From: a bacterium CPR1
GTDB taxonomy: Bacteria > Vulcanimicrobiota > Xenobia > Xenobiales > QWHO01
Direction of reading: 5' to 3'
NCBI GenBank assembly: GCA_021404945.1
Contig: QWHO01000003.1
Coordinates: 1-42,703, forward strand
Length of the DNA: 42,703 bases
The notes beneath the pieces were generated by a model that did not search any database, had not been told where the DNA came from, and worked only from the letters and a program-made list of their open reading frames with translations. Both the position numbers and the translations under genes were made by a program. Within the stretch, counting starts at the first letter, position 1. Each line of letters begins with the position of its first letter. Shown here piece after piece: positions 12,801 to 36,675 of the stretch.

Positions 12801-13598
12801 GTGCATTACCGCGACATCATCGCCCAACCCAGGAGAATTCACACCACCCCCCAGTGGAGCGCCATTCTCTCCGACCCGAAGACAGGCAAGCTGAGAACAT
12901 TCGGGCCGTTTACCATGAACGTCGAGCGCCTGAAGCCCTGGCACACGCTCTCGGGCCGGCAAGAGATCTACTATGATCACCAGGGCATCCGCGAGTTCGG
13001 CGAGTCCCTGCCGACCAACAAGCCGCCCATCGACATGGTTGCCGTGGGCGACATCCGGCTCGACAAGGCCGAGGGAAAATCCAAGGTGTTCCGGTTCATT
13101 ACCCCTCACGGCAAGTGGCAAATCCACAGCTCGTTCCGCGATCACTGGCCCATGCTGCAACTGTCCCGCGGTGGCCCTACGGTGTGGCTCAATCCGGACG
13201 ACGCCAAAGAGATCGACGTGGCCGACAACGACTGGGTCGAAATGTACTGTGAGAACGGCATCGAGGTGGTGCGGGCGGTCGTGAGCCACCAGGTTCCCAG
13301 GGACATGGCCATTACCTACCACCAGGTGGAGCGCCACATCAACGTCCCGTTCTCGCCACTGGCTCACAAGCGCAAGCTGCCGGACCTGCGAGGCGGAAAC
13401 AACAATGCGACCACAAGGATCTTGATGAACCCGAGCACGATGATCGGTGGCTACGCCCAGTTCACCTTCTACATCAACTTCTGGGGTCCGAGCCCGTCAG
13501 AGCGCGACCACGGGGTGTTGATTCGCAAGATGCCTCTGGGCGGCACCAAGAAAGTCATCTATCGAGAGGAAGAGCTCAACTTGCTCCCTCGGGAGTGA
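9843..13598 (+). CDS. narG: Respiratory nitrate reductase alpha subunit (NarG-type molybdoenzyme)
   Basis: 1251 aa (E. coli NarG is 1247), GTG start. The N-terminal FS0 cluster ligands are His33, Cys37, Cys41 and Cys76, with exactly the spacing of E. coli His50/Cys54/Cys58/Cys93. Asp206 in WYHDLP aligns by spacing with the molybdenum ligand Asp222. Further NarG wording includes ESSDWYHSTYWI, YRGTKVVVLSPNYSDVSKYADLWVP and EPRGCQRGA. There is no twin-arginine signal, so the active site should be cytoplasmic as in classical NarGHI. It reduces nitrate to nitrite with electrons from NarI/NarH. Nitrite-oxidising NXR enzymes belong to the same family; the companion NarI and NarK with no NXR-like periplasmic signal favour a reductase. 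The gene is followed 40 nt later by narH. Confidence 0.95.
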   Translation: MTSRWFDINKDSRSWENFYRQRWSYDRSVRTSHGVNCSMACSWEVFVKDGLICWELQKTDYPQIDPDVPNVEPRGCQRGATASWYPYSPLRPKYPYIRGVLWKMYQQGLASGKDPVEAWASIVENEGHSKAYKLARGKAGWKRVTWDEACEMVAAAQIYTIKKFGPDHIASFAPIPAMSLLSFISGHRYNNLIGGIYCSYYEWYHDLPHVSPSMFGDQTENCESSDWYHSTYWIVAGTNLNMTRTADCHFLPEAKYRGTKVVVLSPNYSDVSKYADLWVPLVPGSDGAYLMACIHVILKEFFADREVPYFMDYVKKYTNLPFLVMLDKNGETHYQGRFLRASDLAAHKDQENADWKLLMMDEGGEMHVPTGTVGFRWEKEPTGNWNLQSKDAVTGKEFDPMLTLLGKSEQRASVSFSDFTNTFHITLGKTPGKGKAAQEILREVPVKEVTLKDGKTCLVTTAFDLLMAQAGVSRGLKGDYPKDYDDPKPYTPAWQESQSGVSRNLAIQVAREFAENAEKTKGKSLFITGPGVQHWYHGASLYYRSMAVMLALCGCNGVNGGNFNHYVGTQHTRLNAAFVNLSGALDWQRPPRIMNTTSLWYFHTGQWRYDGMNLDTQWAVGAEKLPPLNHAADVNSLAVRLGWLPFFPQVDRKNPLKLYEEAVQAGCKTDAEVKEWVAEQFKSGKLNFALPNVDAPENQLKILTVYRGNLIGTSMRGQELTLKHFLGTHHNVMWDNEPAKGMVKEIDWVEPSPVGKLDLLVNLNLRMDSTANYADVVLPAAFWYEKYDITFGDMHTFVHPLTPATDPPWETKHDWEAFKLIAKKFSELAKKHFPQPVKDVVFKALWMDSPDMLAQPLGEVKDWKKGEAELIPGKTFPDIAVVERDYTAVYDKLVSLGPLVCKPKGFGSKGQYTDLTPIVEEELKHNDSLTVRDGRVTFEKAEQFCELICQISPELNGRLSEMFFKEMEKKVGLPLADMVESVRQRRVHYRDIIAQPRRIHTTPQWSAILSDPKTGKLRTFGPFTMNVERLKPWHTLSGRQEIYYDHQGIREFGESLPTNKPPIDMVAVGDIRLDKAEGKSKVFRFITPHGKWQIHSSFRDHWPMLQLSRGGPTVWLNPDDAKEIDVADNDWVEMYCENGIEVVRAVVSHQVPRDMAITYHQVERHINVPFSPLAHKRKLPDLRGGNNNATTRILMNPSTMIGGYAQFTFYINFWGPSPSERDHGVLIRKMPLGGTKKVIYREEELNLLPRE

Positions 13599-13638
13599 GA
13601 CGATCCGGGGCGACCGGGAGTGAGGAAGGAAGTGTAGT

Positions 13639-15204
13639 ATGAGGGTCAAGGCGACCTACAGCATGACATTCAATCTGGAGAAGTGCATCGGTTGCAATAC
13701 CTGTTCCGTCACCTGTAAGAACGTCTGGACCAATCGCCAGGGCGCCGAGTATATGTGGTGGAACAATGTCGAGACCAAGCCCGGCATCGGCTACCCGAAG
13801 CAGTGGGAGAATCAGGACCGCTACAAGGGCGGGTGGGTCAAGGATGGCTATAAGCCACTGAGACTGCGCTACGGTGGCAGGGCCTACCAGATGCTCAACC
13901 TTTTCTACAACCCCCACATGCCGGAGATGCAGGACTACTACGGCGGTGACGTTTACACTTTCACTTACGAGGATCTGCACACGACCGAGCCGCTGAGGCA
14001 GCAACCCGTGGCCGCTCCCCGCTCCATGGTCACCGACGAGCGTGACATTCCCATCAACTGGGGTGCCAACTGGGAGGACAATGCCGGGGGGGCGCACATC
14101 ACCGGAAAGTATGACATGAACTTCAAGGGGATCAGCCCCGAGCAACATGAAGCCTTTCTGCGTTTCCGGGACGTTTTCTACTTCTATCTGCCCCGCATCT
14201 GCAATCACTGCATGAATCCCGCCTGCGTGGCGGCCTGTCCCTCCGGTGCCGCTTACAAGCGCGAAGAGGATGGGATCGTGCTCATCGATCAGACCCGCTG
14301 CCGGAACTGGCGTTATTGCATCTCCTCCTGCCCCTACAAGAAGCCATACTTCAACTGGTTCAGCGGCAAGATGGAGAAGTGCATCCTCTGTTTCCCCCGC
14401 GTGGAGTCTGGCATGCCGCCGGTCTGCTTCCACTCGTGCGTGGGGAAGATTCGCTCCTTCGGAGTGCTCCTCTATGACCTGGACAAAGTCGAGGAAGCCG
14501 CCTCGGTGGAGGAGAAAGACCTGATCAAGGCCCAGAGGGCCCTGGTGCTCGACCCTCACGATCCGAAGGTGATCGAGAGCGCTCGCGCAAGCGGGCTCGG
14601 GGACGATTGGATCGAAGCCGCCCAGCGCTCTCCCGTCTATCGCTTGTTCAAGGAGTGGAAGCTGGCGCTGCCTCTGCACCCCGAATTCAGGACGCTCCCC
14701 TCGCTCTTCTACATCCCGCCACTCAGCCCCGTCATCACCACGGCCGGCAAGGACTCGCCCGGCGAGAAGGATGTCTTCGACATGGCCCGGACCCCGGAGA
14801 CGCTGGTCGGACTGGACGAGCTGGACAAGTTCCGAGTTCCGATGCAGTACCTGGCCAACCTTTTCTCGGCTGGAAACGTCGAGGAGGTCAGGGATTCGCT
14901 TGCCCGGCAACTGGCCGTTCGTCACTATGAGCGGGGACGTCAGGTGGAGGGGCGCCCCAACGTGGAGGCGCTCAAGAAGGTGGGCCTGACCGAAGAGGAG
15001 GCTGCCGGCATCATTCGCGCCGTCTCGCTGGCCTTCTATCAGGAGCGCTTCGTGGTCCCCACCACCAAGCGCGAGAATGCGGAAATCAGCCCCTACACCG
15101 AGCGCGGCCTGGCCGGGTTCGACGCGATGGGGCCCTGGACTCCGCTGAAACGTCGGCAGAGCTACCACAAATCTCATCATGACGCGGTGAAAGAGTATGA
15201 ATGA
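13639..15204 (+). CDS. narH: Nitrate reductase beta subunit, Fe-S protein
   Basis: 521 aa, ATG preceded by GGAAGG. It carries four Cys groups for [Fe-S] clusters: CIGCNTCSVTC near the N-terminus, CNHCMNPACVAACP, CRNWRYCISSCP and KCILCFPR...CFHSC. The Trp in CRNWRYC replaces a Cys, as in E. coli NarH, where this converts one site to a [3Fe-4S] cluster. It passes electrons from the NarI hemes to NarG on the cytoplasmic face. Its last 8 nt overlap the start of narJ, so the two are coupled. Length and motif order are normal for the family (E. coli 512 aa). Confidence 0.95.
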   Translation: MRVKATYSMTFNLEKCIGCNTCSVTCKNVWTNRQGAEYMWWNNVETKPGIGYPKQWENQDRYKGGWVKDGYKPLRLRYGGRAYQMLNLFYNPHMPEMQDYYGGDVYTFTYEDLHTTEPLRQQPVAAPRSMVTDERDIPINWGANWEDNAGGAHITGKYDMNFKGISPEQHEAFLRFRDVFYFYLPRICNHCMNPACVAACPSGAAYKREEDGIVLIDQTRCRNWRYCISSCPYKKPYFNWFSGKMEKCILCFPRVESGMPPVCFHSCVGKIRSFGVLLYDLDKVEEAASVEEKDLIKAQRALVLDPHDPKVIESARASGLGDDWIEAAQRSPVYRLFKEWKLALPLHPEFRTLPSLFYIPPLSPVITTAGKDSPGEKDVFDMARTPETLVGLDELDKFRVPMQYLANLFSAGNVEEVRDSLARQLAVRHYERGRQVEGRPNVEALKKVGLTEEEAAGIIRAVSLAFYQERFVVPTTKRENAEISPYTERGLAGFDAMGPWTPLKRRQSYHKSHHDAVKEYE

Positions 15205-15814
15205 GAACCTCTATCGGGCTATCGCCGAGCTGTGGTGTAATCCCTGTGATCTGGAAGCTGAGGCGCGAATGCGGGCGGCCGAGACTGCCCTGGCCGAGGC
15301 GCGGGTCCTGGGCCCGGAGTGCAGCGAGCCCCTGCAGCTTTTCCTGAGCAGCACCGCCAGTGAAGAGGAATACATCGACCTTTTCGAGCTAGACCCCAAG
15401 TGCTCTCTCTACCTCGGCAGCAATGTCTTTGCCGAGCCCGAATCCTGTGCCAAGGCGGGCGTGTGCGATCGCAATGGATATATGCTCGAGTGGGTCGGGA
15501 TCTATCAGCACTTTGGTTTGATGCCCAATGGCAGGGATCTGCCCGACTATCTGCCCCAGGTGGTGGACTTTCTGGGCATGTCGGCCGGATCAGACGACCC
15601 GATCCGGCTCAAGGCGATCAAGGAATACACCCTGCCTTACCTGCCCCCCATTCGCACCAAGCTTCAAGAATTGCAGAGCCCGTACGTGCATTTGCTGGAC
15701 GTGCTCGAGCGCCTGCTGCAACAAGACCTGGAGCGTCTGGGCGCAGGCAGCCTGATGGAGAACCTACCTCTCACTGAAGGAGAAGGAGAAATGGTGGAGA
15801 CGAGCCGTGGTTGA
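15197..15814 (+). CDS. narJ: Nitrate reductase assembly chaperone NarJ
   Basis: 205 aa, mostly helical, in the standard narGHJI position and overlapping both neighbours. Family wording: LFELDPKCSLYLGSNVF, GYMLEWVGIYQHFGL, LPDYLPQVVDFLGM. NarJ/TorD-type chaperones hold apo-NarG in the cytoplasm until molybdenum cofactor and FS0 are inserted, then allow docking on NarI. A small Cys set (CAKAGVCDRNGY) in the middle is not something I know from E. coli NarJ. Identification leans partly on gene order, which is decisive here. Confidence 0.88.
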   Translation: MNENLYRAIAELWCNPCDLEAEARMRAAETALAEARVLGPECSEPLQLFLSSTASEEEYIDLFELDPKCSLYLGSNVFAEPESCAKAGVCDRNGYMLEWVGIYQHFGLMPNGRDLPDYLPQVVDFLGMSAGSDDPIRLKAIKEYTLPYLPPIRTKLQELQSPYVHLLDVLERLLQQDLERLGAGSLMENLPLTEGEGEMVETSRG

Positions 15815-16505
15815 CAACTTCCTCTTCGTCGCATTGCCTTATATCTCGCTGTTGCTGTTCTTTGGCGGAACATTCTACCGCACTTTCTCTGGCGGCATGA
15901 CAGAGTTCCGGGGCCGCTGGGACTGGTCAGTTCGGGGAGACTTCATGTGGACGACCCGCTCGACCGGTTTCTTCGGGCGCGCTTCCATTGGCCCGGCCGT
16001 CCTGTGCCTGCACTGGGGGCTGTTCATCTTGTTGATCGCCCACCTGGTCGGTTTCGTGGCGGGTGCCGTGAACTGGGCCTGGGGCGTCGACTACTTCCGC
16101 TGGACGGGGATGGTGGGCGGAATGCTGGTCCTGTACGGCGCAATCTGGGCCTTTGCCCGGAGGCTTTCGATCCCGCAGCTTCGGTCCATCAGTATGACGG
16201 AAGACTACATCGTCTTGCTCTTCATCATCTTCATCACCAGCCTCGGCCTCTACCACTCGATGATCAAGCTGGCCTGGGGCGTGACCTACAATGCCGGACC
16301 CTGGGTCGGCGGATTGTTGACCTTGCGACCCGATGCAGCCTTGATGGCGGCAGCTCCGCTCCTCATGAAGACGCACGTGGTTGTGGCCATGCTCTTCTTT
16401 TGCTACCTGCCCTTCACCAAGCTGGTCCACCTGTTCAGCTACCCCTTCAGCTTCATGCTCCGCCCCCACATCACCATGCGGAGCTTTGCAGGCTTGAAGC
16501 GGTGA
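15807..16505 (+). CDS. narI: Nitrate reductase gamma subunit, diheme cytochrome b
   Basis: 232 aa, GTG start overlapping the end of narJ. Five hydrophobic helices are visible. The heme b ligands are present with E. coli spacing: LHWGLFILLIAHL carries two His 10 residues apart (His56/His66 in E. coli), and KTHVVVAMLFF...KLVHLFS carries two His 18 residues apart (His187/His205). It oxidises quinol, or here possibly accepts electrons via the membrane cytochrome c at 9350, and delivers them to NarH. The final GTGA is shared with the next small gene. Confidence 0.93.
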   Translation: MVDNFLFVALPYISLLLFFGGTFYRTFSGGMTEFRGRWDWSVRGDFMWTTRSTGFFGRASIGPAVLCLHWGLFILLIAHLVGFVAGAVNWAWGVDYFRWTGMVGGMLVLYGAIWAFARRLSIPQLRSISMTEDYIVLLFIIFITSLGLYHSMIKLAWGVTYNAGPWVGGLLTLRPDAALMAAAPLLMKTHVVVAMLFFCYLPFTKLVHLFSYPFSFMLRPHITMRSFAGLKR

Positions 16506-16699
16506 GCACCAAAGTGATGGCACCTGCGCAGGAGCAGGTCACTTTGACGGTAAACGGGCGCGGTATTCCCCTGTCAGATTTCGTGCAGCGGGCGATGGCG
16601 GGTATGCTCAGGGGGTTTCTGGGCTCTCTCAAAGGCGTGCATGACCCCGGCGAAGTGTGCATCACGCTTTCTCGGCCTCAACAGCCTCGCGCGGGGTAA
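16502..16699 (+). CDS. Small conserved-looking protein between narI and narK
   Basis: A 65-aa frame with a GTG start overlapping the narI stop (GTGA) and ending 3 nt before the narK start, so its placement is that of a real operon member. Sequence: a short strand VTLTVNGRGIPLS, an amphipathic helix FVQRAMAGMLRGFLGSLKGV, then EVCITLSRP. No signal peptide, metal motif or known family is recognised. It may be a small assembly or regulatory factor for the nitrate system. Both tight overlaps argue for translation. Confidence 0.6.
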   Translation: MSTKVMAPAQEQVTLTVNGRGIPLSDFVQRAMAGMLRGFLGSLKGVHDPGEVCITLSRPQQPRAG

Positions 16700-16702
16700 G
16701 GC

Positions 16703-18418
16703 TTGACCGAGAAAGCGCACCAGGAAGCTCAGGTCCCGTCCGATATCGTCCCGGCCAAAGCCTGGCGAGCCCTGGCGATGACCACGCTGGCCTTCACGGT
16801 GTGCTTTGCGGTCTGGATGATGTACGGTGTCCTGATCACCTTCCTGGTTGATCGAGGCCTGTATCATTGGGATCGGGTCAAGCTGGGATGGTTGATCGGC
16901 ATACCCGTTCTGACCGGAGCCCTGATGCGCCTTCCTGCCGGTCTGCTGGCAGACCGTTACGGGGGGCGGTTGATCCTCACTCTGCTGATGCTGGTCTCGG
17001 CCCTACCCACCTACCTGGTCAGCCTGGCCAACGGCTTCGGGGAGTTCCTGGTTGCCGGCCTGGGTTTTGGTCTTTGCGGGGCCAGTTTTGCGGTCGGGGT
17101 TGCCTACGCCTCCCTGTGGTTCCCGCCCAAGCGGCAGGGTATGGCGCTCGGCCTCTTTGGGATGGGCAACCTGGGCGCGGCGCTGACCAGCATGGGCGCG
17201 CCAAGCTTGCTGGGCGTCCTGACCGCCGAGAGCCTGGAAGGCTGGAGGAGCCTGCCCCGACTCTACGCTCTGCTGCTCGCCCTCACCGCTGTCCTTTTCT
17301 GGCTCTTGACCGATACCAGAAAGATTGATCGGCCCCGAAGCCTGGCCGAATGCGTTGCCCCCCTCTCCAATCTCAGGGTCTGGCGCTTCGGGCTCTACTA
17401 TTTTTTCGTTTTTGGTGGCTTTGTCGCCGTTTCCCAGTGGCTCATCCCCTACTACGTGACGATGTATGGCCTTTCCATCACCACTGCCGGCATGCTGGCC
17501 GCGACCTTCAGCCTGCCTGCCAGCTTGATCCGAAGTGTGGGTGGCGCTCTGGCTGACCGGTTTGGTCCGCGAATGATCATGTACTACACGCTGGGGGGCA
17601 GCCTGGCCCTGCTGCTGCTCTTGTTTCCCCCCCGGATGGAGATTCAGACTCCTGGTCAGGCAGTAACCGCAACCGGCGCCGGCACGGTTACCGAGGTCAC
17701 GGCGGATGAGATCGTCGTGGACAAGACCCGCTACCCTCTGGCGCGGGCCAGCAAAGGCCAGACAAGAATCAGGGTGGGTGCCGATGAGGTTGACGGGCAT
17801 GTGGAAGGAATGTTCTTTTTTCCGGTCACCGTCATCGAGCACGAGCCGCTGGTGAAGGTTGGCGACAAGGTCACTCGTAAGCAAGCCCTGGCCCGTGGCT
17901 CCACAAGGCTTTACTTTCAGGCCAATGTGTGGGTCTTCTCTGTCCTGGTCTTCTTTCTCGGGCTGTTGTTTGGCTGCGCGGGAGCGGCGATCTACAGGCA
18001 CATTCCTGACTACTTCCCGGGAAATGTTGGGGTCGTCGGGGGTCTGGTCGGAGTTCTGGGAGGGATCGGCGGCTTTGTCTACCCGATCATTTTTGGCTAT
18101 CTCCTGGGTGCTTCCGGCATCTGGACGAGTTGCTGGATGTTTCTCTTCGCCGTCGGGCTTGTCTGCCTGTTGTGGATGCACATCGTGATCCAGCGGATGA
18201 TGCAGCGGCGCGTGCCCTTGTTGATGCGCGAGATCGAGTCTCGACCTGTGGTGACCTGTGTGCGCTGTGAGGCGACCGCGGAGGTAAAAGTGCGGGTGGA
18301 GGATGGGAAGCTCAAGCTCGAGCGGTGCTCGCTGCTCGAGCCGGGAAGCGACTGTCCGGCCGAGTGCCTGGAAGGCAGGCGTCTCAGGCCAATCCCCCGG
18401 CAAGACCCCGCTGAGTAA
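16703..18418 (+). CDS. narK: Nitrate/nitrite MFS transporter NarK with inserted soluble domain
   Basis: 571 aa from a TTG 3 nt after the small upstream gene; about 100 residues longer than usual NarK. MFS helices are clear, with the nitrate-signature-like glycine segments GLFGMGNLGAALTSMG in the first half and GNVGVVGGLVGVLGGIGG in the second. Residues ~312-406 are a hydrophilic beta-rich insert; its end, LVKVGDKVTRKQALARG, reads like a barrel-sandwich (lipoyl-like) half motif. A cytoplasmic-type tail (~497-571) carries five Cys (VTCVRC...C...CPAEC). It should import nitrate and/or export nitrite. The insert and tail are not part of E. coli NarK and their role is unknown. Confidence 0.9.
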   Translation: MTEKAHQEAQVPSDIVPAKAWRALAMTTLAFTVCFAVWMMYGVLITFLVDRGLYHWDRVKLGWLIGIPVLTGALMRLPAGLLADRYGGRLILTLLMLVSALPTYLVSLANGFGEFLVAGLGFGLCGASFAVGVAYASLWFPPKRQGMALGLFGMGNLGAALTSMGAPSLLGVLTAESLEGWRSLPRLYALLLALTAVLFWLLTDTRKIDRPRSLAECVAPLSNLRVWRFGLYYFFVFGGFVAVSQWLIPYYVTMYGLSITTAGMLAATFSLPASLIRSVGGALADRFGPRMIMYYTLGGSLALLLLLFPPRMEIQTPGQAVTATGAGTVTEVTADEIVVDKTRYPLARASKGQTRIRVGADEVDGHVEGMFFFPVTVIEHEPLVKVGDKVTRKQALARGSTRLYFQANVWVFSVLVFFLGLLFGCAGAAIYRHIPDYFPGNVGVVGGLVGVLGGIGGFVYPIIFGYLLGASGIWTSCWMFLFAVGLVCLLWMHIVIQRMMQRRVPLLMREIESRPVVTCVRCEATAEVKVRVEDGKLKLERCSLLEPGSDCPAECLEGRRLRPIPRQDPAE

Positions 18419-20214: not shown

Positions 20215-20763
20215 GTGGTGCAGCAATGGGCCCTGGTGCCCTTCTTATCAATTTCGGCGACTATCGTGCTGGTTTTTCTCTGGGTGGCCCTCAGCACCAG
20301 GAAGCGCCATGACACAGACTACGCCTCGGTGGCTCGCCTCAGGGTCTACGTCATCGCCGGCCTGATGACCCTGTTGACCGCCTCCTTCTCGCTGACCATC
20401 GGTCACATGCCCTATCCGTTCATGATGAAGAGCCTGCCCGACCGGGTGGTTCGGGTCACCGCGCGCCAATTTGGATTCGTCTTCGAGAATCCGCCCACGG
20501 CCCAGGTGACCGAGGACCCGCGCATTTTCCGACTGGGTGCCGACGTGGAGCTCGATGCCATCAGCGCGGACGTGAACCACGGCCTGGGGGTCTACGATCC
20601 GGGCGGAGTGCTGGTCGCCCAGGCTCAAGTAATGCCAGGCTATGTCAACAAGCTGCGGGTCAAGCTCGAGAAGCCCGGCACCTGGACAGTGCTCTGCATG
20701 GAATACTGCGGTCAGGCGCACCACGCGATGCGCCAGACGTTCGAAGTCTCCGCCACGCCCTGA
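20215..20763 (+). CDS. norY: Cu(A) subunit II of heme-copper oxidase / sNOR-type NO reductase
   Basis: About 182 aa; GTG at 20215, or the next codon GTG at 20218, which fits a leaderless start. Two N-terminal transmembrane helices (LSISATIVLVFLWVAL and a second around VYVIAGLMTLLTASF) are followed by a cupredoxin domain. All Cu(A) ligands are seen: His122 (DVNHG), Cys161, Glu163 and Cys165 in CMEYCGQ, His169 and Met172. It accepts electrons from cytochrome c outside the membrane and hands them to the subunit I encoded next. It is short for a cox2. The symbol follows the order known for Nitrosomonas norSY-senC and is tentative. Confidence 0.82.
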   Translation: MVQQWALVPFLSISATIVLVFLWVALSTRKRHDTDYASVARLRVYVIAGLMTLLTASFSLTIGHMPYPFMMKSLPDRVVRVTARQFGFVFENPPTAQVTEDPRIFRLGADVELDAISADVNHGLGVYDPGGVLVAQAQVMPGYVNKLRVKLEKPGTWTVLCMEYCGQAHHAMRQTFEVSATP

Positions 20764-20777
20764 GGAAAGGACCAACA

Positions 20778-22256
20778 ATGACAGCCGATACCCACGCCTC
20801 CAACGACTTCAGCCCGGGCACCTATCGCCTCAGTCTTCTCTGGATCGCAATCATGTTCTTGCTCTTCCCCGTCCTTGTGATCGTGGGTCTGATCATGAGG
20901 TCAGGACAGGGGGGGATGCTACCCGCTCTGAAGCCAGGCCTCTTCTACGCGCTGATGACCCTGCACGGCCTGGGAATGGTCGGTCTCTGGTTTGCGGTGG
21001 CGATGGCGATCGTGTCTTGCCTGTTGAGCCGTTACGCCCGAGTCAACGTGGTTGCCAACCAGGTGGCCGGCGGTCTGACTGTGCTGGGCGTGGTCATGCT
21101 GGTGGTCGCCACTCTGGTGGGTCGCTTTGCTCCCGGGTGGTATTTTCTCTATCCCCTTCCCTTCAAGTCCATGGGGCAGTGGCCGGCCTGGTCGACCACC
21201 CTCTTCCTGGCCACGCTGGGGGTTCTGGGTGTGGCCTGGCTGATCTGGACCCTGGCTCTGTTGATCGCTATCGCCAGGCGTTACTCTCTGAGCCGAGCCC
21301 TGGCCTGGCATTACATCAAGGGCCCGGCCAAACCCGAAGTCCCTGTCGAGCCCGTGATCCCACCTTTCGTCTTAATCACGACGGTCAGCCTCATCGCCCT
21401 GCTGGTCGGGCTCATTTCTGCGGTATTGTTGCTGGTTCTCTTCCTGGCGGAGTGGCTCACGGGAAATCCCGTCGATGCTCTACTGATGAAGAACCTGACC
21501 TTCCTTTTCGGTCACCTGCTGGTCAATCTCACTCTCTACCTCTCGGTGGGCGTCATGTATGAGGTGCTTCCCGAATACGCCGGGCGGCCCTGGAAAACCA
21601 ACCGTATCGTCGCCATCGCCTGGAACATCGCTCTGGGTCTTCTCTTGCTGGCCACCTTTCATCACCTTTACATGGACTTCGTCCAGCCCGGATTCTTGCA
21701 CGTGCTTGGCCAGTTCGGCTCCTATTTCGTCTCGGTTCCGGCGGCTGCCGTCTCCATCCTGGGAACCCTGGCCCTGGTGCATGGGTCCCCCATGCGATGG
21801 AACCTGGCCTCAAGTCTCTTGTTCCTGGGCACCATGGGCTGGGCCATCGGAGGGGTGGGAGCGGTGCTCGACTCCACCATTGCTCTGAATACCGTGTTGC
21901 ATAATACTCTCTGGGTGCCGGCTCATTTTCATACCTACTACGTCATGGGTTGCGTGCTGATGCTGATGGGTGCCGCCTACCACCTGGTCAACCAGAAGGC
22001 CAATCTTCCCGACGCAACGAACCTGACACGTGCGGTGATGGCCTTTCTGCTCATCGGCGGTTATGGTTTCTTGCTCAACTTCTACCTGGCAGGGGCCTAC
22101 TCGGTTCCCAGGCGTTATGCCCAGTATCCCGAGGTGGTTGGTCAGGGAACTCACTATTCTGCCATCGCGGTGCCTCTGGGCAGCCTTTTGCTCGTGGGGG
22201 TCTTGCTCTACGCCTGGGATACCGGTCGCCGCCTGGTCAGGGCCTATCAAAGTTGA
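20778..22256 (+). CDS. norS: Heme-copper oxidase subunit I lacking the active-site Tyr; sNOR-type NO reductase candidate
   Basis: 492 aa, about 12 transmembrane helices, AAAGGA ribosome site. Ligands seen: His63 and His385 for the low-spin heme, His383 for the high-spin heme, and His246, His295 and His296 for Cu(B). In oxygen reductases His246 would start H-P-E-V-Y, with the Tyr cross-linked to it. Here the segment is GHLLVNL, so position 250 is Asn and the Tyr is absent; the Glu of the HLWVE motif in cNOR is also absent. Loss of that Tyr is the mark of the NO-reducing members of this superfamily. Together with a Cu(A) subunit and a SenC gene in the same order as Nitrosomonas sNOR, NO reduction to N2O is the best inference. 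An unusual oxygen reductase is the alternative. Confidence 0.78.
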   Translation: MTADTHASNDFSPGTYRLSLLWIAIMFLLFPVLVIVGLIMRSGQGGMLPALKPGLFYALMTLHGLGMVGLWFAVAMAIVSCLLSRYARVNVVANQVAGGLTVLGVVMLVVATLVGRFAPGWYFLYPLPFKSMGQWPAWSTTLFLATLGVLGVAWLIWTLALLIAIARRYSLSRALAWHYIKGPAKPEVPVEPVIPPFVLITTVSLIALLVGLISAVLLLVLFLAEWLTGNPVDALLMKNLTFLFGHLLVNLTLYLSVGVMYEVLPEYAGRPWKTNRIVAIAWNIALGLLLLATFHHLYMDFVQPGFLHVLGQFGSYFVSVPAAAVSILGTLALVHGSPMRWNLASSLLFLGTMGWAIGGVGAVLDSTIALNTVLHNTLWVPAHFHTYYVMGCVLMLMGAAYHLVNQKANLPDATNLTRAVMAFLLIGGYGFLLNFYLAGAYSVPRRYAQYPEVVGQGTHYSAIAVPLGSLLLVGVLLYAWDTGRRLVRAYQS

Positions 22257-25065: not shown

Positions 25066-26211
25066 TCAGCACCAGTAGCCGCCTCCACCGTATGGGGAGT
25101 AGCCACTCTGTTGCCAGTTGCCACCCTGTTGCCAGGAGCCGCCCATCAGCAGCATGGCCCACTGGTCCTGGTAGCCGGCCAGCTCGCGAGTGTGATAATG
25201 GCTGTACCCGGCCAGGACCTGGGTTTCCACGTCGTGGTAGGTCGTGGTCTGCTTGTTGAAGGTCGAGCTCATGTCGCCGCGGTTGATATTCTTCACATCA
25301 AAGGAGGTGATTCCGTGCTGAGACAGCGATTGCATTTCACCAGCATCGACTTTTCCATCCGCATTCGCGTCCTTCCAGATCTGCAGGCCCCTCAATTCGT
25401 CGCCCTCGACCCGGCCGTCCCGATTCTTGTCGAAGTAGTGAGCCACCTTCTCGTAGCCGTCCTTGAAGCGCTCCTTGCCATCGACATCATAGTTTCCGAA
25501 CAATTCCTTCGAGCTGGTGATTTTACCGTCGTTGTTGACATCCCAGACGAGCAGCCCGTCTCCGCCGTTCTTGGCCAGCCACTCGGTCTTCTCCCGCTCT
25601 TCCTTCTTGCCCCAGTAGGTCCAGCCATCCTTGCGGATCGCGTCCGACGGCGCTCCTTTCCCGGGCAGGCGCATCTTGCTCTTGTATTCCCAGGATTCCT
25701 TGGAGGGATCGATGTCGAACATGACCCCCTCACCCTCGACCTTGCCGTCACCCAGGACGTTCTTGCCCGTGATGTCAGGCTTTCCATTTCCGTTCAGGTC
25801 CAGGACGATCGGGGATTTCTGGGTGGTCTTCTGGCCATCCTTGTAGTCGAACCACACGTCCCACATCTTGCCCGGCTCATTTTGCGTACAGGCCTGCTGG
25901 GTGTGAACCGTCTGGTAGTGAGCCTCGGTCCAGCAGCGGTCCTGATAGATGGGTGTGCGGCTGTAGGCGACGGCTCCCCCGAGATAGGCTCCCGCTCCCG
26001 AGCCACCTCCGCAAGAGTAGCCCGGATTCCAGGAGCTCTGGCCCCCCCCGCTGCAGCACGGGTTGCAGAACAGGGCATTGAGCATGTTGTTGCTCGACCC
26101 CCACTGGCCCGAGTAGCCGCTGTTATTCCACTGGCCCACGGGCGCCCAGCTCGAGTAGGCCCCTGCAGCCGCAAAAGCGGTGACGTTCTGATAGTTAGCG
26201 GAACCGTACAT
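25066..26211 (-). CDS. EF-hand calcium-binding protein with Gly/Ser/Trp-rich ends
   Basis: 381 aa; ATG at 26211 with GGAGG 9 nt before it. Residues 1-~110 are rich in Gly, Ser, Asn, Tyr and Trp with Cys pairs (FCNPCCSGGG), and the C-terminus ends in a similar Gly/Trp/Gln stretch and Cys. The middle has at least four EF-hand-like Ca loops: DLNGNGKPDI, DVNNDGKITSSKEL, DKNRDGRVEGDEL and DANADGKVDAGEM, all with Asp at 1, 3 and 5. Such loops are common in bacterial surface and secreted proteins, but no Sec signal is seen, so export would need another route (e.g. type I). Function not recognised. Confidence 0.8.
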   Translation of the reverse strand: MYGSANYQNVTAFAAAGAYSSWAPVGQWNNSGYSGQWGSSNNMLNALFCNPCCSGGGQSSWNPGYSCGGGSGAGAYLGGAVAYSRTPIYQDRCWTEAHYQTVHTQQACTQNEPGKMWDVWFDYKDGQKTTQKSPIVLDLNGNGKPDITGKNVLGDGKVEGEGVMFDIDPSKESWEYKSKMRLPGKGAPSDAIRKDGWTYWGKKEEREKTEWLAKNGGDGLLVWDVNNDGKITSSKELFGNYDVDGKERFKDGYEKVAHYFDKNRDGRVEGDELRGLQIWKDANADGKVDAGEMQSLSQHGITSFDVKNINRGDMSSTFNKQTTTYHDVETQVLAGYSHYHTRELAGYQDQWAMLLMGGSWQQGGNWQQSGYSPYGGGGYWC

Positions 26212-26303
26212 CAGGAAAAACCTCCATCATCAACCTTGCCCCCTTTTTCACGTGCCAGACGACAAAGTCAAGACCCGGCCAGCTTTCTTTCAGGCTTGTC
26301 GGT

Positions 26304-26309
26304 TAAACT
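26304..26309 (+). promoter_or_regulatory. -10-like TAAACT next to start codon
   Basis: TAAACT ends 7 nt before the ATG at 26317, again a leaderless-type distance. No convincing -35 is seen. Confidence 0.4.
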
Positions 26310-26316
26310 GGCCTCG

Positions 26317-28566
26317 ATGGACAAACTGTCCCCCTTCCGCCAGGAGGCAGCCCGCGGCCATCGCGAGAGCCAGGCATGGCGACTGAGGTTCTGGAAGCGC
26401 GACCAGATCGATCTGGCCCGGGCAGAGCTTTGCCTGGATCGGCTGGACGCGCTCCAGCCCGGCGACGGTGAGCGGCGTGTGCTGGCCATGGCCCGGGCCG
26501 CAGCCCAGCCTCCCGCCACCCGTCTGGAGGTGCTGCAGCACTCGCTTGGGGTGCTGGCCCACGGAGTTACGGCCGACCTGGTGGGTCTGGCCGGGGTGGG
26601 TCTGGCTCTGCGCGACCTGGCTGGACCGACGGCTGCTGCCTCCCTGGCCGCACAGCTGCCCGACTCCGGCCTGCTCGGTCGGCTGTCTCCCGAGCCCGAC
26701 TGGCTGCTGCGCAAGGCGGCCCGGCCCATGCCCACGACCGCGTCGGAGTGGGCCGCGACGCTGGCTGACGCTCCCGCCCGGTCGGTGCGGATCGCCCTGG
26801 AGGAGCTGGGCGACCCGACCTTCTCTCAGGCACTGGACCGGCTGAAGCTGAGCCCTCAGGTGCGCGAGCAGCTCGACCGCCAGACTCTGGAAAGCCTGGA
26901 CCAGCCCCTTACCAGGCCCCAGCGGATCGCCCGCTTCCTGGATACCAGCGAGATCGATCCGGCCGAGGCCTGCCGCCTGGGCGACTTCATGCTTGCCGGG
27001 GCGGAGGAGCAGCCGGCCAAGCACCTGGCCCGGGGCTTCGACCAGGCTTCCGACGAGCAGCGCGCCATCGCGCTCAGGGCGGCTGCTCGCCAGCTCGATC
27101 AGCCCTTCGAGATCGAGAAGGCGGTGCGGGACCTGCAGGGCGTTCCTCCACGCGAGGTGGCCCGCGTGCTGGCCAGCGTCAAGCCCTCCCCTCAGCTTTC
27201 CCTGCTGACCCGGGTCAGCGACGACAGGGCGGTGGCCGAGGGCCTGGGCGCGCTGGATCTCAGGCCTCCGGCCATGCTCGACAAGCTCCGTCCGCTGCTG
27301 GCCCCTTCCGAGACCATGGCCCTGGTCGACCACTCCCAACCCTTCCTGGCGGCCCTGCTGGCCACCCCGTGGTCACAGGATGAGGACCAGGCAAGGGTGG
27401 CGGTGGCCGGCTGGCAAGCCTTCGACCGCTCCCCCGGCCTGGCCGGGGCGGCCCTTGCCATGGCCCGAGCTACCTCTGATCTCAACCAGCGCCGCTATCT
27501 GTGCCGGGGAGCGCTCAAGGCCATGCAGCACCCGGTGGCAGACAAGCTGGAAGCCATGACCCACCTGGCCGGGCCCAACGCCGAGTGGAGCCAGACCGCT
27601 CTTGCGATGGCCGCCCTGTCCGAGATCGATCGGCGGGGAGGCGAGCCACGCCCGGGAGCCCTGCTGGCCGTGGTCAGCCAGGTCGCTGCCAGCTGGGCCG
27701 GACCGGTCTGGCGCAGCCAGCTCGAGCAGTTCCTGCAGCAAGATCCCGAGCTTGGCCCGGTGGCCCGCTCGGTGGGCAGCCTGGAGAGCCTCCACCTGGT
27801 CTTGGAGGACCAGTTGCTCGGCTCGGCCGTCAGCCCGCCGACGCCGGCCGCCGTGGGGGAGACCGGCCAGGCCGTGCTGGTGGGCGGCGTCCGCCTGGAG
27901 AAGAAGAGCCCCATCGAGGGAGCCGGGCCGGAGCTGACCCCCTCCGATTCGACTCCTCCCGTGGCGCAGGCTCTGGATCTTGGCCCTCCGCCCACGCCCG
28001 GCACCAGGATCGAGACCCGCTGGAAGGAAGGCTACAAGAGCGGAGTGGTGGTGATCTACAACCCCACCAGCGGCGTCTTCGAGGAGCGGGAGGCCTACAA
28101 GAGCGGCGTGGCCGGGGTCTACAACCCCAGGTCTGGCCTGGTGGAGCTGCGCGAGAGCTATAAGAGCGGCGTGGCCGGGGTCTATAACGTCAAGAGCGGC
28201 CAGACCGAGTGGCGCGAGGCCTATAAGAGCGGGGTGGCCGGCGTGTATGCCGGCGACCAGGTGGTCTTTCGGGAAAGCTACAAAGGCTGCGTGGCTGGCA
28301 TTCTCGAGCCCGGGGCCGGCCAGCCCGAGTTTCGAGAGGCCTACAAGAGTGGCATCGCGGCCGTGCTCAACCCGGCCACCGGCAGCGTCGAATGGTCCGA
28401 AGGCTATAAGAGCGGTGTCGCCGGGCTTTACGATCCGGCCCGGGGAGCGGTGGAGTTCCGCGAGAGCTACAAGAGCGGGCTGGCCGCCGCCAGCAGCGAC
28501 CCCGAGCGTCCCACCCTCATGGCCTATTCGTTCCCCTACTGGGAAGACGAGGACCCCTACGACTGA
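26317..28566 (+). CDS. Large alpha-helical-repeat protein with eight C-terminal YKSG repeats
   Basis: 749 aa from the ATG at 26317; the frame is open much further upstream (to 25111), but only as the mirror of the EF-hand gene. Residues 1-~500 are Ala/Leu-rich helices with HEAT/TPR-like spacing. A short motif AVLVGGVRLEKK (~525) is shared with the C-terminus of the minus-strand protein at 37631 (HVIVGGVAVRKN), so the two are probably related. Residues ~570-730 hold eight ~19-residue repeats of the type YKSGVAGVYNP-SG-VE-RE. No signal peptide or catalytic motif is seen. A surface or scaffold role is a guess. Confidence 0.75.
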   Translation: MDKLSPFRQEAARGHRESQAWRLRFWKRDQIDLARAELCLDRLDALQPGDGERRVLAMARAAAQPPATRLEVLQHSLGVLAHGVTADLVGLAGVGLALRDLAGPTAAASLAAQLPDSGLLGRLSPEPDWLLRKAARPMPTTASEWAATLADAPARSVRIALEELGDPTFSQALDRLKLSPQVREQLDRQTLESLDQPLTRPQRIARFLDTSEIDPAEACRLGDFMLAGAEEQPAKHLARGFDQASDEQRAIALRAAARQLDQPFEIEKAVRDLQGVPPREVARVLASVKPSPQLSLLTRVSDDRAVAEGLGALDLRPPAMLDKLRPLLAPSETMALVDHSQPFLAALLATPWSQDEDQARVAVAGWQAFDRSPGLAGAALAMARATSDLNQRRYLCRGALKAMQHPVADKLEAMTHLAGPNAEWSQTALAMAALSEIDRRGGEPRPGALLAVVSQVAASWAGPVWRSQLEQFLQQDPELGPVARSVGSLESLHLVLEDQLLGSAVSPPTPAAVGETGQAVLVGGVRLEKKSPIEGAGPELTPSDSTPPVAQALDLGPPPTPGTRIETRWKEGYKSGVVVIYNPTSGVFEEREAYKSGVAGVYNPRSGLVELRESYKSGVAGVYNVKSGQTEWREAYKSGVAGVYAGDQVVFRESYKGCVAGILEPGAGQPEFREAYKSGIAAVLNPATGSVEWSEGYKSGVAGLYDPARGAVEFRESYKSGLAAASSDPERPTLMAYSFPYWEDEDPYD
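28020..28500 (+). repeat. Eight ~57-nt coding repeats (YKSGVAGVYNP type)
   Basis: Eight copies of a ~57-nt unit built on CTACAAGAGCGG-GTGGCCGG, encoding YKSG-V-A-G-[VIL]. The fifth copy is the variant YKGCVAG. Copies differ at synonymous sites, so the repeat is kept at the protein level. The predicted unit is two short strands with a turn (SG), like other beta-hairpin repeat proteins. Confidence 0.85.
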
Positions 28567-28848: not shown

Positions 28849-28891
28849 TTGATCTGGATCAAGAGTGGCATTCGCCGTCTGAGGGTATACT
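28849..28891 (+). promoter_or_regulatory. Perfect FNR box and -10 at class II spacing, encapsulin operon promoter
   Basis: TTGATCTGGATCAA (28849-28862) matches the FNR consensus at all specified bases. TATACT (28886-28891) lies where a class II promoter, activator centred at -41.5, puts the -10, giving a start site near 28897. This is 3-4 nt before the TTG of the DUF3079 gene, so the mRNA would be nearly leaderless. The spacer CTGG is the same as in the box at 7124. It predicts induction by low oxygen or NO through an FNR/Dnr-type protein encoded elsewhere. Confidence 0.8.
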
Positions 28892-28900
28892 CGGCTGGTC

Positions 28901-29125
28901 TTGAGCGAGCTTGAAAAACAGGGACCTCGATCGGGTCGCTCCGCCCCCGAGAAACCGGCCCATCCTGAGAGGATCTGCTGGGGCTGTGAGCGTTTTTGTC
29001 CGGCCGATGCTCTGGCCTGCGGCATGGACACGGTGCGAGCCCCCCATCCTCACGAGCTTTTTGGGGACGACTGGCGGACCTGGGTCGCAACAACTGGCCG
29101 ACAGGACCCGGAGGAGACGGCCTGA
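28901..29125 (+). CDS. DUF3079-family small Cys protein
   Basis: 74 aa with a TTG start; no ATG or GTG is available in frame. The core HPERICWGCERFCPADALAC with the following HELFGDDW is the DUF3079 family pattern (HPER[IV]CWGC...CPAD...ACG...ELFG[DE]DW). Four Cys in C-x2-C-x3-C-x6-C spacing suggest one zinc or Fe-S site. The family function is unknown to me. It is the first gene after the FNR box, and its TGA overlaps the next ATG (TGATG), so it is coupled to the encapsulin cargo candidate. The first ~18 residues are Pro/Arg/Ser-rich and not part of the family core. Confidence 0.8.
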   Translation: MSELEKQGPRSGRSAPEKPAHPERICWGCERFCPADALACGMDTVRAPHPHELFGDDWRTWVATTGRQDPEETA

Positions 29126-29478
29126 TGAGAAACCTGGCGGAAATCCTCCACAACATGCACGAGCACACCGAGACCTATCATCGGCTCTTGCAGGAAGGAG
29201 AGCTGGATGGCGAGTTCGTGCAGCGCCTCTGCGAGCACATCGTATTGGAGGAAAGCGAGAACTCGCAGCTTCTGCAAGGTCTGGAGCGGACCCCCCTGGC
29301 CCAGAAGATGCTCGATCACAGCTACTTCCTCCAGCAGATGATTAGACAGCCGGAAATGCCGCTCGACTTGAAGCTCGAGCTGTTGCACCACTTCCTGGAG
29401 GAGCATCAAGAGTGGGAGCGCGACTTGAGTCCCCAGACCCACTGGACAGTCGGGCCGTTGTGGCCCAGGAAAGGTTGA
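29125..29478 (+). CDS. Candidate encapsulin cargo: small His/Glu-rich helical protein with C-terminal targeting peptide
   Basis: 117 aa; ATG overlaps the previous stop and has GGAGGA 9 nt upstream. Four helices are likely: ~4-23, 27-54, 58-74 and 80-101. They carry ExxH-type pairs: E6-H9, E16-H19, E85-H88, plus E42, E43, E45 and E92, E93, H94. These could build a di-iron or other metal site, as in ferritin-like or hemerythrin proteins, but I cannot assign it to either. The tail 103-117 ends WTVGPLWPRKG. TVGPL matches family-1 encapsulin targeting peptides of the (L/I)TVGSL type, and a Pro/Gln linker precedes it as usual. It is encoded 6 nt before the encapsulin shell gene. The cargo role is therefore well supported; the chemistry is open. 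Confidence 0.75.
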   Translation: MRNLAEILHNMHEHTETYHRLLQEGELDGEFVQRLCEHIVLEESENSQLLQGLERTPLAQKMLDHSYFLQQMIRQPEMPLDLKLELLHHFLEEHQEWERDLSPQTHWTVGPLWPRKG

Positions 29479-29484
29479 CATCTC

Positions 29485-30336
29485 ATGTGGAGTGATCATC
29501 AGAAACTCAAGGAGCTTCCGCTAAGCCCTGAGCAAGCTCAGGCCTTGCTCCAGTCGGCCGTGAAGGAGGTTCGCAGAACCGTTGTGGCACGGCGTTTCAT
29601 GGCGCTTTTCGGCCCTCTGGGCGCGGGTGTGGAGAGTGTGCCGCTGGTCGCCATCGGCAAAGACACCGCTGCCGAGATCAGTTTGGAGGGGCATCCGGAT
29701 CCCCAGCCTATCGGCATTCAGGAGCCTCGGACCTATGTGCGCCTTCCCCTGATCTATAAGGACTTCATCCTGCATTGGCGGGATGTCAAGTGGAGCACGG
29801 ACATGGGCACCGAGCTAGACGGTGCCAACGCGATGCGTGCCGCCCATCAACTCGGTCACGCCGAGGATAAGCTGCTCTTTGGCGGAGCCCCCGATCTCGG
29901 CATTCACGGCCTGCTGAACTGGCCGGGCACGCTGCACGTGACCTCCGCCGGCTGGAACCAGCCCGGTTCCCCGGTGCGCGACGTCTACGGAGCGATCCGA
30001 CGATTGTTGGATGCCGACCATCACTTCCCCTACGCGCTGGTCACCTCGGTGGATATGTACGAAGCTCTGCTCAAGAACGTCACCGAGTCTCCGGTCCTGG
30101 AGCTGGAGCAGGTCAGCAAGCTCTGTGAGGACGGGGTCTTCTGGAGCCCGCAGATCGCTCCCGGCACGGCCGCCGTGGTCTCTACCGGCGCTCAGAACTT
30201 CGACATTGCCGTGGCCGAAGATTTGCAACTGGCCTACCTGGGGCCGGTCGACATGAATTACCGTTTTCGCGTCTACGAGTCCTTGATTTTGAGGGTGAAG
30301 CGACCGACCTCGGTGTGCCGAATCATCCCGGCCTGA
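29485..30336 (+). CDS. Encapsulin shell protein (family 1, HK97 fold)
   Basis: 283 aa, within the family range. N-terminal arm LPLSPEQAQALLQSAVKEVRRTVVARRFM; then YVRLPLIYKDFILHWRDV and the long helix region with ELDGANAMRAAHQLGHAEDKLLFGG, the hallmark of linocin/encapsulin proteins. It continues as DHHFPYALVTSVDMYEALLK and ends ESLILRVKRPTSVCRI. It self-assembles into a nanocompartment that takes up proteins with a C-terminal targeting peptide. The gene just upstream supplies such a protein. Its stop is 4 bp from the convergent prenyltransferase-like gene. No DyP peroxidase or classical encapsulated ferritin gene is nearby. Confidence 0.9.
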   Translation: MWSDHQKLKELPLSPEQAQALLQSAVKEVRRTVVARRFMALFGPLGAGVESVPLVAIGKDTAAEISLEGHPDPQPIGIQEPRTYVRLPLIYKDFILHWRDVKWSTDMGTELDGANAMRAAHQLGHAEDKLLFGGAPDLGIHGLLNWPGTLHVTSAGWNQPGSPVRDVYGAIRRLLDADHHFPYALVTSVDMYEALLKNVTESPVLELEQVSKLCEDGVFWSPQIAPGTAAVVSTGAQNFDIAVAEDLQLAYLGPVDMNYRFRVYESLILRVKRPTSVCRIIPA

Positions 30337-34774: not shown

Positions 34775-35992
34775 ATGGCGCACGAAGAGATCCGCAACCT
34801 GGTCGGCCAGTTGGCCGAGACCTCGACCGACCTTTATCAGGGAAGCTTCCTGTTGACCTGGATGCAGAGCGAGTCCAACCTCAAGGCCGTCTTGCTGGCC
34901 GCCGAAGCGCTCCAGAAGATGGCCAGAGCGGGTGTCTCCTCAAAGCTGTTCGATACCGGTCTGGGCATCTCGATTTTTCGCGACAAGTCCACCCGCACCC
35001 GCTACTCGTTTCGGGCCGCCTGCAACATGCTGGGCCTGATGACCGAGGAGCTTGACGAGAGCACGTCGCAGATCTCCCACGGCGAGACCGTGCGCGAGAC
35101 GGCCAGCATGATCAGCTTCTTCAGCGAGGTGATCGGCATCCGCGACGACATGTTCCTGGGCGCCGGCCACAAGTACATGCAAGAGGTCTCTGACTCGGTG
35201 CAGGAGAGCTATCGCGAGGGCGTGCTCTTCCAGCGCCCGGCGGTGGTCAACCTGCAGTGCGACCTGGACCATCCCACCCAGTCGATGGCCGACCTGCGCC
35301 ACCTGATCGAGACCTGTGGCAACCTCGAGAACCTGAAGGGAAAGAAGATCGCCATGACCTGGGCCTACTCGCCCAGCTACGGCAAGCCGCTCTCGGTGCC
35401 GCAGGGCATCATCACCCTGATGTCACGCTTCGGGATGGAGGTGGTGCTGGCCCATCCCGAAGGCTACGACCTGGTGCCCGAAACGCTGGAGGCGGCCAAA
35501 AAGCACGCCGCCGCCTCGGGCGGCTCGTTCTCGGTGGCCCACTCGATGGAGGAGGCTTTCAGCGGGGCGGACGTGGTCTATCCCAAGAGCTGGGCCCCGT
35601 ACAAGGTGATGGAGAAGCGCACCGAGCTCTTGATGGCGCGCAAGCACGATGAGCTGAAAGAGCTCGAGAAGCACGCCCTGGCCGAGAACGCCAGGCACAA
35701 GAGCTGGGAGTGCACCGAGGACCTGATGAAGCGCACCAGAGACGGCAAGGCGCACTACATGCACTGCCTGCCGGCCGATATCACGGGCGTGAGCTGCCAG
35801 GAAGGCGAGGTGGCCGCCTCGGTGTTCGACCGCTATCGCCTGGCCACGTATCGCGAAGCGGGCCACAAGCCGTTCGTGATCGCGGCCATGATCTTGCTGA
35901 CCCGCTTCGAGAAGCCGGCTGACATGCTGAAAGCCTGCCTGGACAACGTGGTCGCGCGGCGCGGTTGCGTGAAGTCGCTGGCGGCCAGGTGA
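34775..35992 (+). CDS. ygeW: Knotted carbamoyltransferase YgeW
   Basis: 405 aa; ATG at 34775 with TTGAGGTGG just before it (the upstream TTG at 34763 overlaps that site). The carbamoyl-phosphate motif STRTR is at 72-76, HPTQ at 166-169 and HCLP at 330-333, so the ATCase/OTCase active site is complete. The length and wording (LYQGSFLLTWMQSESNLKAV, DMFLGAGHKYMQEVSDSV, WAYSPSYGKPLSVPQG) are those of YgeW rather than ArgF or PyrB. YgeW proteins sit in purine/oxalurate or hydantoin degradation loci, and their second substrate is not firmly settled. None of those partner genes is present here. It shares GTGA with the cNMP-binding regulator. Confidence 0.88.
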   Translation: MAHEEIRNLVGQLAETSTDLYQGSFLLTWMQSESNLKAVLLAAEALQKMARAGVSSKLFDTGLGISIFRDKSTRTRYSFRAACNMLGLMTEELDESTSQISHGETVRETASMISFFSEVIGIRDDMFLGAGHKYMQEVSDSVQESYREGVLFQRPAVVNLQCDLDHPTQSMADLRHLIETCGNLENLKGKKIAMTWAYSPSYGKPLSVPQGIITLMSRFGMEVVLAHPEGYDLVPETLEAAKKHAAASGGSFSVAHSMEEAFSGADVVYPKSWAPYKVMEKRTELLMARKHDELKELEKHALAENARHKSWECTEDLMKRTRDGKAHYMHCLPADITGVSCQEGEVAASVFDRYRLATYREAGHKPFVIAAMILLTRFEKPADMLKACLDNVVARRGCVKSLAAR

Positions 35993-36675
35993 GCCTCTCG
36001 CTCGAGCGGGCTCGGGCCCCTCTGGCGGCGGTCCCGTTCTTCTCAGGTCTCAGCGAGTCGGGCCTGGAAGCCCTCACCAGGGCCGCGCGGCTGCGCGAGC
36101 TGGCGGTTGGAGATCGCTTGATGCGCCAGGGTGAGGAAGGAGACGAGTTCTTCGTGGTGCTCAGCGGGCAGCTGCGCCTGACCAGCCGGGCCGATGGCGA
36201 GAGCGAGGCTTTCACCCTGGGCCTGGTGGGTCCCGGCGAGCACCTGGGCGAGATGGCCCTGCTCGATGGAGGGCCCCGCTCGGCCACGGCCGAGGCGGTG
36301 GCTCCATGCGAGCTGCTGGTGCTCCAGCGCGAGAGCTTTCACCATCTGGTGGGCCAGCATCCCGAGCTGGCCCTGGGCCTGATGCGGGGGATGGCTCGCC
36401 GGCTGCGCCAGACCAACGAGGACCTGGCCGCGGTGGCTCACCTGGACGCCTACCAGCGGCTGGTGCGAAAGCTCGTCACTCGGGCCGAGAGCGAGGGTCC
36501 GAGCCTGCCGCTGGATCTTGAGCTGCTCGGGGGCATGACGGGCCTGGAGCCGGCCGGGGTCAAGTTGATGCTCGACCTGATGGCCTTCAACGGGCTGATC
36601 AAGCTGGCCGGCGGGCAGATCACGCTGGTGGATTTGGAGCGCTTGCGCCGCTCGCGGGGATTGACCGAGCGATAA
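35989..36675 (+). CDS. Crp/Fnr-superfamily regulator with cyclic-nucleotide-binding domain
   Basis: 228 aa; GTG start overlapping the YgeW stop. Residues ~12-130 are a cNMP-binding beta-roll (PFFSGLSESGLEALTRAA, GDRLMRQGEEGDEFFVVLSG, GEHLGEMALLDGGPRSATAEA). The C-terminal ~65 residues have a winged-helix look (LELLGGMTGLEPAGVKLMLDLM...NGLIKLAGGQITLVD). The recognition helix lacks the ExxSR pattern that reads FNR/CRP half-sites, and there is no N-terminal Cys cluster, so it should not be the protein that binds the FNR boxes here. The GE-x6-R-x-A cAMP-type pocket is roughly kept (GEMALLDGGPRSA). It overlaps the convergent MUG gene by 56 nt. Confidence 0.82.
   Translation: MSLSLERARAPLAAVPFFSGLSESGLEALTRAARLRELAVGDRLMRQGEEGDEFFVVLSGQLRLTSRADGESEAFTLGLVGPGEHLGEMALLDGGPRSATAEAVAPCELLVLQRESFHHLVGQHPELALGLMRGMARRLRQTNEDLAAVAHLDAYQRLVRKLVTRAESEGPSLPLDLELLGGMTGLEPAGVKLMLDLMAFNGLIKLAGGQITLVDLERLRRSRGLTER

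Follow-up and report, generated by a model that had tools for sequence, protein, structure and literature searches.

A family-1 encapsulin operon with a small cargo that is most likely a fused pair of helical hairpins

The 117-aa protein encoded next to a family-1 encapsulin in bacterium CPR1 is well supported as an encapsulin cargo and, judging from sequence comparison and structure prediction, most likely represents two copies of a helical hairpin cargo fused into a pseudo-dimer. The operon lies in a stretch of 42,703 nucleotides that was analysed as a whole and is called the window here. The cargo is real and its family is unnamed in the libraries searched (Pfam, NCBIfam and PDB). In the reading that we consider rather probable, the encapsulin would be loaded via WTVGPLW with a duplicated and fused hairpin cargo, likely iron-binding and under FNR-type regulation. 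The cargo family, its tail, its linkage to the shell and the duplication can be read from sequence; loading, metal binding, chemistry and regulation are inferred. A small helical cargo would be taken into the shell by means of the C-terminal cargo peptide WTVGPLW. A two-helix hairpin, which is a separate cargo in related encapsulins, would have been duplicated and fused to give a compact four-helix bundle, a single-chain pseudo-dimer. The invariant His and Glu are most likely ligands of one or two ions of iron (or a similar metal), and the particle would be an iron-oxidising or iron-holding nanocompartment, as with encapsulated ferritins, with a re-shaped and asymmetric metal site. A regulator of the FNR/Dnr type probably turns the operon on at low oxygen or with NO, and DUF3079 would be a co-transcribed addition. 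The features of the operon are collected in Table 1.

Table 1. Features of the encapsulin operon, with positions in the window
Feature	Position	Strand	Basis or remark
DUF3079 small cysteine protein (CWGCxxxCxxxxxxC)	28901..29125	+	PF11278; TTG start uncertain
Tandem-hairpin encapsulin cargo, 117 aa	29125..29478	+	16-member family; AF2 four helices
Encapsulin shell protein, family-1, 283 aa	29485..30336	+	PF04454, NF041155
Cargo hairpin 1, residues 4-51	29134..29277	+	invariant H9 N10 H14 H38 E42 E43
Cargo hairpin 2, residues 57-101, probable duplicate of hairpin 1	29293..29427	+	invariant H65 S66 H89 E92 E93 H94 E96
C-terminal targeting peptide WTVGPLWPRKG (predicted)	29443..29475	+	WTVGP[LM]W kept in close relatives
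FNR-type box TTGATCTGGATCAA, perfect	28849..28862	.	pattern scan, no mismatch
Putative -10 TATACT, class II spacing from FNR box	28886..28891	+	read from sequence

The three genes are tightly coupled, as the original prediction had stated. The stop codon of the DUF3079 gene (TGA, 29123-29125) overlaps the ATG of the cargo gene (29125-29127) by one base, and the encapsulin ATG lies 6 nt 3' of the cargo stop. The ribosome site of the cargo gene, GGAGGAG, is at 29110-29116, and the final codons of the cargo gene, AGG AAA GG, also serve as the ribosome site of the encapsulin gene. Directly 5' of the operon is an ORF of 1151 aa (25111-28566) whose C-terminal end is made up of a tandemly repeated unit, 'EAYKSGVAGVYNxxSG', about 20 residues long. 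Repeated 'MLATPG' units are found on the minus strand at the end of the contig (41949-42695).

The assignment of the shell to family 1 holds: it matches PF04454 over its full length (E 8.5e-51, 173 bits, above cut-off) and the family-1 shell model NF041155 (204 bits, cut-off 100), and its best PDB sequence match is 6nj8 (E 3e-56). A scan with a shell alignment, using one genome per species, identified 12 close shells that are 67-72% identical to that of the window, all from Obscuribacterales and other 'Melainabacteria' records. The nearest shell from the window's own class (L030) is 51% identical. For this same-class encapsulin (5001-5822 in L030, genome G017) a hairpin cargo was not found within 5 kb on either side.

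Each of the 12 close shells has a homologue of the 117-aa protein encoded 5' of it, one of which (L022) is frameshifted. The 11 intact close relatives share a core of 105 residues, 47-54% identical to the window cargo, followed by a Gly/His/Ser-rich linker of widely differing length and then by WTVGP[LM]W; in the window cargo there is almost no linker between core and tail. Four more divergent members complete a family of 16 sequences (the window cargo, the 11 intact close relatives, L123, L124, L162 and L163), in which relatives are 33-54% identical to the window protein. Two of these (L123 and L124) end in LSLGSLR and have a shell gene upstream. The other two end in TVGSL: for L163 (L164) no encapsulin gene was found in the 16 kb read around the cargo homologue (none within 8 kb), and for L162 (L165) none was found nearby on a contig that starts about 0.6 kb upstream of the homologue. 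The tail is thus WTVGP[LM]W in 12 of the sequences, LSLGSLR in two and TVGSL in two, and all 15 intact relatives keep the helical core and a targeting-peptide-like tail. Of 53 Obscuribacterales genomes, 14 have the cargo, and exactly these 14 have an encapsulin. Because the tail is fixed while the linker varies in length, the C-terminal tail of the 117-aa protein is, on this sequence comparison, very probably a targeting peptide, through which the protein would load into the shell. The original prediction had proposed this for WTVGPLWPRKG and named homologues without a TVGxL tail even beside encapsulin as evidence to the contrary; there are none among the homologues with a readable end, every one of which has a TVGxL-like tail.

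That the cargo is of a novel type is also borne out, there being no family match in Pfam, NCBIfam or PDB. The Pfam matches SOGA, BDV_G, DUF4368 and Hairy_orange were rejected as chance, since they are below cut-off and differ between members. An alignment scan and a plasmid protein search gave no relative of the cargo, and single-protein scans of viral contigs gave none of shell or cargo.

The internal duplication of the cargo and its relation to single-hairpin cargos were absent from the earlier reading of the sequence. An AlphaFold2 model made with the family alignment has four helices (residues 4-23, 29-51, 57-74 and 80-101; mean pLDDT 87) and a disordered tail, and a Foldseek search with the model gave no PDB match with E <0.001, only unrelated helical bundles. 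The spacing of His14-His38 equals that of His65-His89 (24 residues). When the two halves were compared with each other by hhalign, close relatives only gave 58% (E 1e-4), and inclusion of the divergent members gave 94% (E about 2e-7), in a gapless alignment of 38-42 columns. None of 150 column permutations reached the score, nor did a reversed profile.

Cargos consisting of one such hairpin occur beside encapsulins of Planctomycetota and of Sandaracinaceae (Myxococcota) (L031-L035), and five further examples from Planctomycetota (L155-L159) all adjoin a shell gene. They usually bear two C-terminal TVGSLR-like peptides, and no curated family model was found for any of the ten. By hhalign, the halves of the window family match the single hairpins at 94% and 92%, again without gaps. 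An HMM built solely from five single hairpins was run in an open search over six-frame ORFs of all loci. In 12 tandem relatives it assigned a domain to each half, the second being weak; the window protein was not among its hits, and there were no other scores of note. With an HMM of nine single hairpins, none of 992 controls (shuffled or reversed) reaches the score of any of the 16 N-terminal halves. The C-terminal halves are weaker (median 9.8 bits, compared with a control maximum of 9.5), and that of the window cargo matches only weakly when taken by itself, at 8.1 bits, a score that 3 of the 992 controls surpass. An AF2 model of a single hairpin (pLDDT 58) was too poor for use. In a tree of 29 shells, those of the tandem and single-hairpin cargos form one clade (support 100/100), and IMEF and EncFtn-type shells fall outside it. 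Since the two hairpins match each other and each matches the single-hairpin cargos, fusion into a pseudo-dimer is the most likely account of the cargo, and sequence and prediction both give this tandem-hairpin reading good support. Whether the change was a duplication or a loss is inferred, since the tree does not settle the branching order of lineages within the shell clade.

The operon had been described as FNR-controlled. The perfect box and the class II -10 are both present as predicted (Table 1). TTGATCTGGATCAA is the sole perfect FNR box in the window, and the FNR motif TTGATNNNNATCAA, upstream of the operon, has class II spacing, with the box centre at 28855.5 and a predicted start at about 28897. 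The only common start codon of the DUF3079 gene, TTG at 28901, is some 4 nt 3' of this predicted start, so the mRNA would be nearly leaderless, a geometry that would count against a simple promoter reading. What stands of the claim is a plausible FNR-type promoter, but in this genome only: the operons of the 12 close relatives, whose genomes belong to another phylum, have no perfect or near-perfect FNR box upstream.

An FNR-type regulon in this genome seems credible from the distribution of sites. Its 7.4 Mb contain 12 perfect sites, compared with one for the reversed control pattern. Three are on contig C212, beside cysteine synthase and benzoyl-CoA-type genes, and the 14-mer TTGATCTGGATCAA itself is found twice at this anaerobic benzoyl-CoA-type gene cluster. 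The best models there are 6-hydroxycyclohexene-carbonyl-CoA dehydrogenase, a crotonase of the 2-ketocyclohexanecarboxyl-CoA hydrolase type, cyclohexadiene-carbonyl-CoA hydratase and 4-hydroxybenzoyl-CoA reductase, all four matches being below the models' own cut-offs. Another perfect site, on contig C249, adjoins a gene that we take, by reading, to be NnrS-like (no NCBIfam match). These sites and their neighbours on C212 and C249 speak for a regulon of the FNR/Dnr type that serves anaerobic life; some of the others are intragenic and look like chance. A Crp-like gene of the window (35965-36675) is an unlikely candidate for the FNR itself, its recognition helix being without ExxSR; ETxSR is present in two further regulators that the genome encodes (L128 and L130). 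The window also contains narGHI (9843-18418), accompanied by what we take, by reading, to be narJ- and narK-like genes, and a COX2-like and COX1-family heme-copper oxidase gene pair (20215-22256), a family assignment only, in which NO reduction is not distinguishable. The nanocompartment may have a role when oxygen is limiting or under NO stress. Elsewhere in the window, a near-perfect FNR-type box with the same CTGG spacer (TTGATCTGGATCAG, 7124-7137) lies about 45 bp upstream of the gene for a GAF + BTAD regulator (7182-9116).

The first gene of the operon encodes a DUF3079 protein, as had been stated (PF11278, E 8.7e-22, 77 bits, cut-off 27, residues 15-61). It is present in a single copy in the genome, and none of 24 other genomes, related or cargo-bearing, contains it. 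It adjoins no other encapsulin among those examined, and in the betaproteobacterial plasmids examined it stands alone. We therefore rejected DUF3079 as a conserved partner; a local addition to the operon is the best reading of it. The 'partner set' of the original prediction consists of genes that are indeed present in the operon, but the term overstates their roles, because DUF3079 and the FNR box are confined to the operon of this genome. Among the papers searched, none links encapsulins to Obscuribacter or to DUF3079.

The operon was likely acquired by horizontal transfer: family-1 encapsulin is rare in the host phylum (3 of 149 genomes), the cargo is absent from 57 relatives of the host, and the nearest shells are in another phylum. 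The transfer would not be recent, since the G+C content of the operon matches that of the host (0.61, compared with about 0.50 in Obscuribacterales). Contamination by an Obscuribacterales contig was considered and rejected, because G+C and tetranucleotide profile fit the host genome instead: the profile of the window correlates at 0.89 with the other contigs of the genome and at 0.26-0.37 with Obscuribacterales.

Eighteen positions are invariant in the 16 cargo sequences, and 13 of these are His, Glu, Asn or Ser (Table 1), including six His and five Glu; E96 counts as invariant only if L162 and L163 are given a gap of one residue ahead of it. The 'ExxH pairs' pointed out originally (E16-H19 and E85-H88) are not among them and are not conserved in relatives. 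Helical-wheel angles place H14, E43, H65 and H94 towards the core of the bundle and E42 and E93 at its edge. The invariant His and Glu are, from their conservation, likely to form a metal site. HxxxEExEH, present in 6 of the 10 single hairpins, is the signature of bacterial EncFtn, in which E62 and H65 hold iron (PMC11202242). In the tandem cargo HxxxEExE is retained in half 1 only, and the ferroxidase ExxH is found in neither half, the corresponding residues being E43xxN46 and H94xxW97 (W97 is replaced in divergent members). As the half-sites have diverged in this way, the metal site would not be an EncFtn ferroxidase site.

The same residues could be read otherwise. The cargo might be a hemerythrin-like binder of O2 or NO, not a ferroxidase, with encapsulation protecting against NO or O2. 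The four helices carry [D/E]H, HxxxE, [D]H and HxxxE, with HxxxE on helices 2 and 4 and six invariant His, hemerythrin cargos with a role in nitrosative stress have been reported (PMC8346489), and the window contains the FNR-type box and narGHI. We consider this unlikely, however, given that no Pfam or NCBIfam hemerythrin profile matches at E up to 10 and that kinship to single hairpins with the EncFtn signature points to ferritin-like ancestry. We consider it distinctly unlikely that the cargo serves as structural or scaffold filler or buffers metal without redox chemistry, the His-rich linkers of the relatives binding metal or nucleating mineral: the very variable Gly/His/Ser-rich linkers and the loss of the EncFtn ExxH would suit it, but the core has its 18 invariant positions, mostly His and Glu, and the window protein is almost linkerless. 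EncD, which bears on a third alternative, is structurally a helical hairpin dimer. That the fused hairpin pair resembles EncD, a small encapsulin cargo and flavin-binding ferric reductase (PMC11202242), and would bind flavin and release stored iron, is very unlikely, for although full-length single-hairpin L035 matches the NCBIfam EncD model (E 1.7e-4) and W97 sits where some EncD members have Trp, the L035 match depends on the targeting peptides and is lost with the core alone (so that we also rejected the single hairpins as EncD), the tandem cargo has neither an EncD match (8% and 0.1%) nor DFGYLMPF, the invariant His and Glu speak for metal, and divergent members have other residues in place of W97.

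For family 1, a large encapsulin survey names six main types of cargo (PMC8346489), and the fused, iron-handling cargo that we prefer can be compared with known systems. Hemerythrin cargos resemble it in their four helices, several invariant His and HxxxE, but, as stated above, it matches none of the hemerythrin profiles. EncD (NF058680, PDB 8vjn) is also small, has a targeting peptide and a second helix similar in outline, but is a flavin protein with a single hairpin and DFGYLMPF; there is no match of the tandem family to its profile, and the comparison by hhalign is not significant. IMEF (PF24309, TIGR04536) shares four helices without ExxH and HH[IF]xEE on one helix, but is a Firmicutes protein of about 200 aa from another shell clade. 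Its profile PF24309, which finds the Bacillales cargo L038 at 6e-59 as a positive control, does not match the window cargo.

EncFtn (Rhodospirillum rubrum, and EncB/EncC of Myxococcus) is likewise small and helical, with a C-terminal targeting peptide and a gene beside that of the shell, and has the His-x3-Glu-Glu-x-Glu of the second helix of hairpin 1. EncFtn works as a four-helix bundle of two chains, whereas AF2 predicts the window cargo to have four helices in one chain instead of the dimerising two-helix monomer. The aligned His of the window hairpins are some 10 residues closer together, neither half has kept ExxH, and none of 12 members matches the EncFtn models (PF22277, TIGR04535) at E up to 10, although these find R. 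rubrum EncFtn at 2e-38. Comparisons of the tandem cargo with EncFtn, IMEF and EncD by hhalign (0.1-9%) are not significant; the single hairpins give weak values of 16-18% with EncFtn and IMEF (EncFtn 16%), and three of them match EncB weakly (E 0.05-0.13). None of the family profiles tried matches either the tandem-hairpin cargo or the single-hairpin cargos related to it. The single-hairpin cargos themselves align without gaps to each half and share the shell clade but have one hairpin per chain, a double targeting peptide and, in 6 of 10 cases, HxxxEExEH.

Classical ferritins have been proposed by He et al. (2016) to have arisen by duplication of an EncFtn ancestor, fusion freeing the site from symmetry (PMC5012862). 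We suggest, tentatively and with some doubt, that the cargo might be a present-day product of this step (duplication and fusion of an EncFtn-like hairpin), with half-sites that diverged after fusion (E43 versus H94 and N46 versus W97) and FNR-type control for anoxic iron/NO handling. Related to the origin of ferritins or not, the cargo is an instance of such a step within encapsulins. If its metal site is confirmed, the single hairpin and the fused pair would provide a direct experimental handle on the 2016 proposal, because both forms coexist in related shells.
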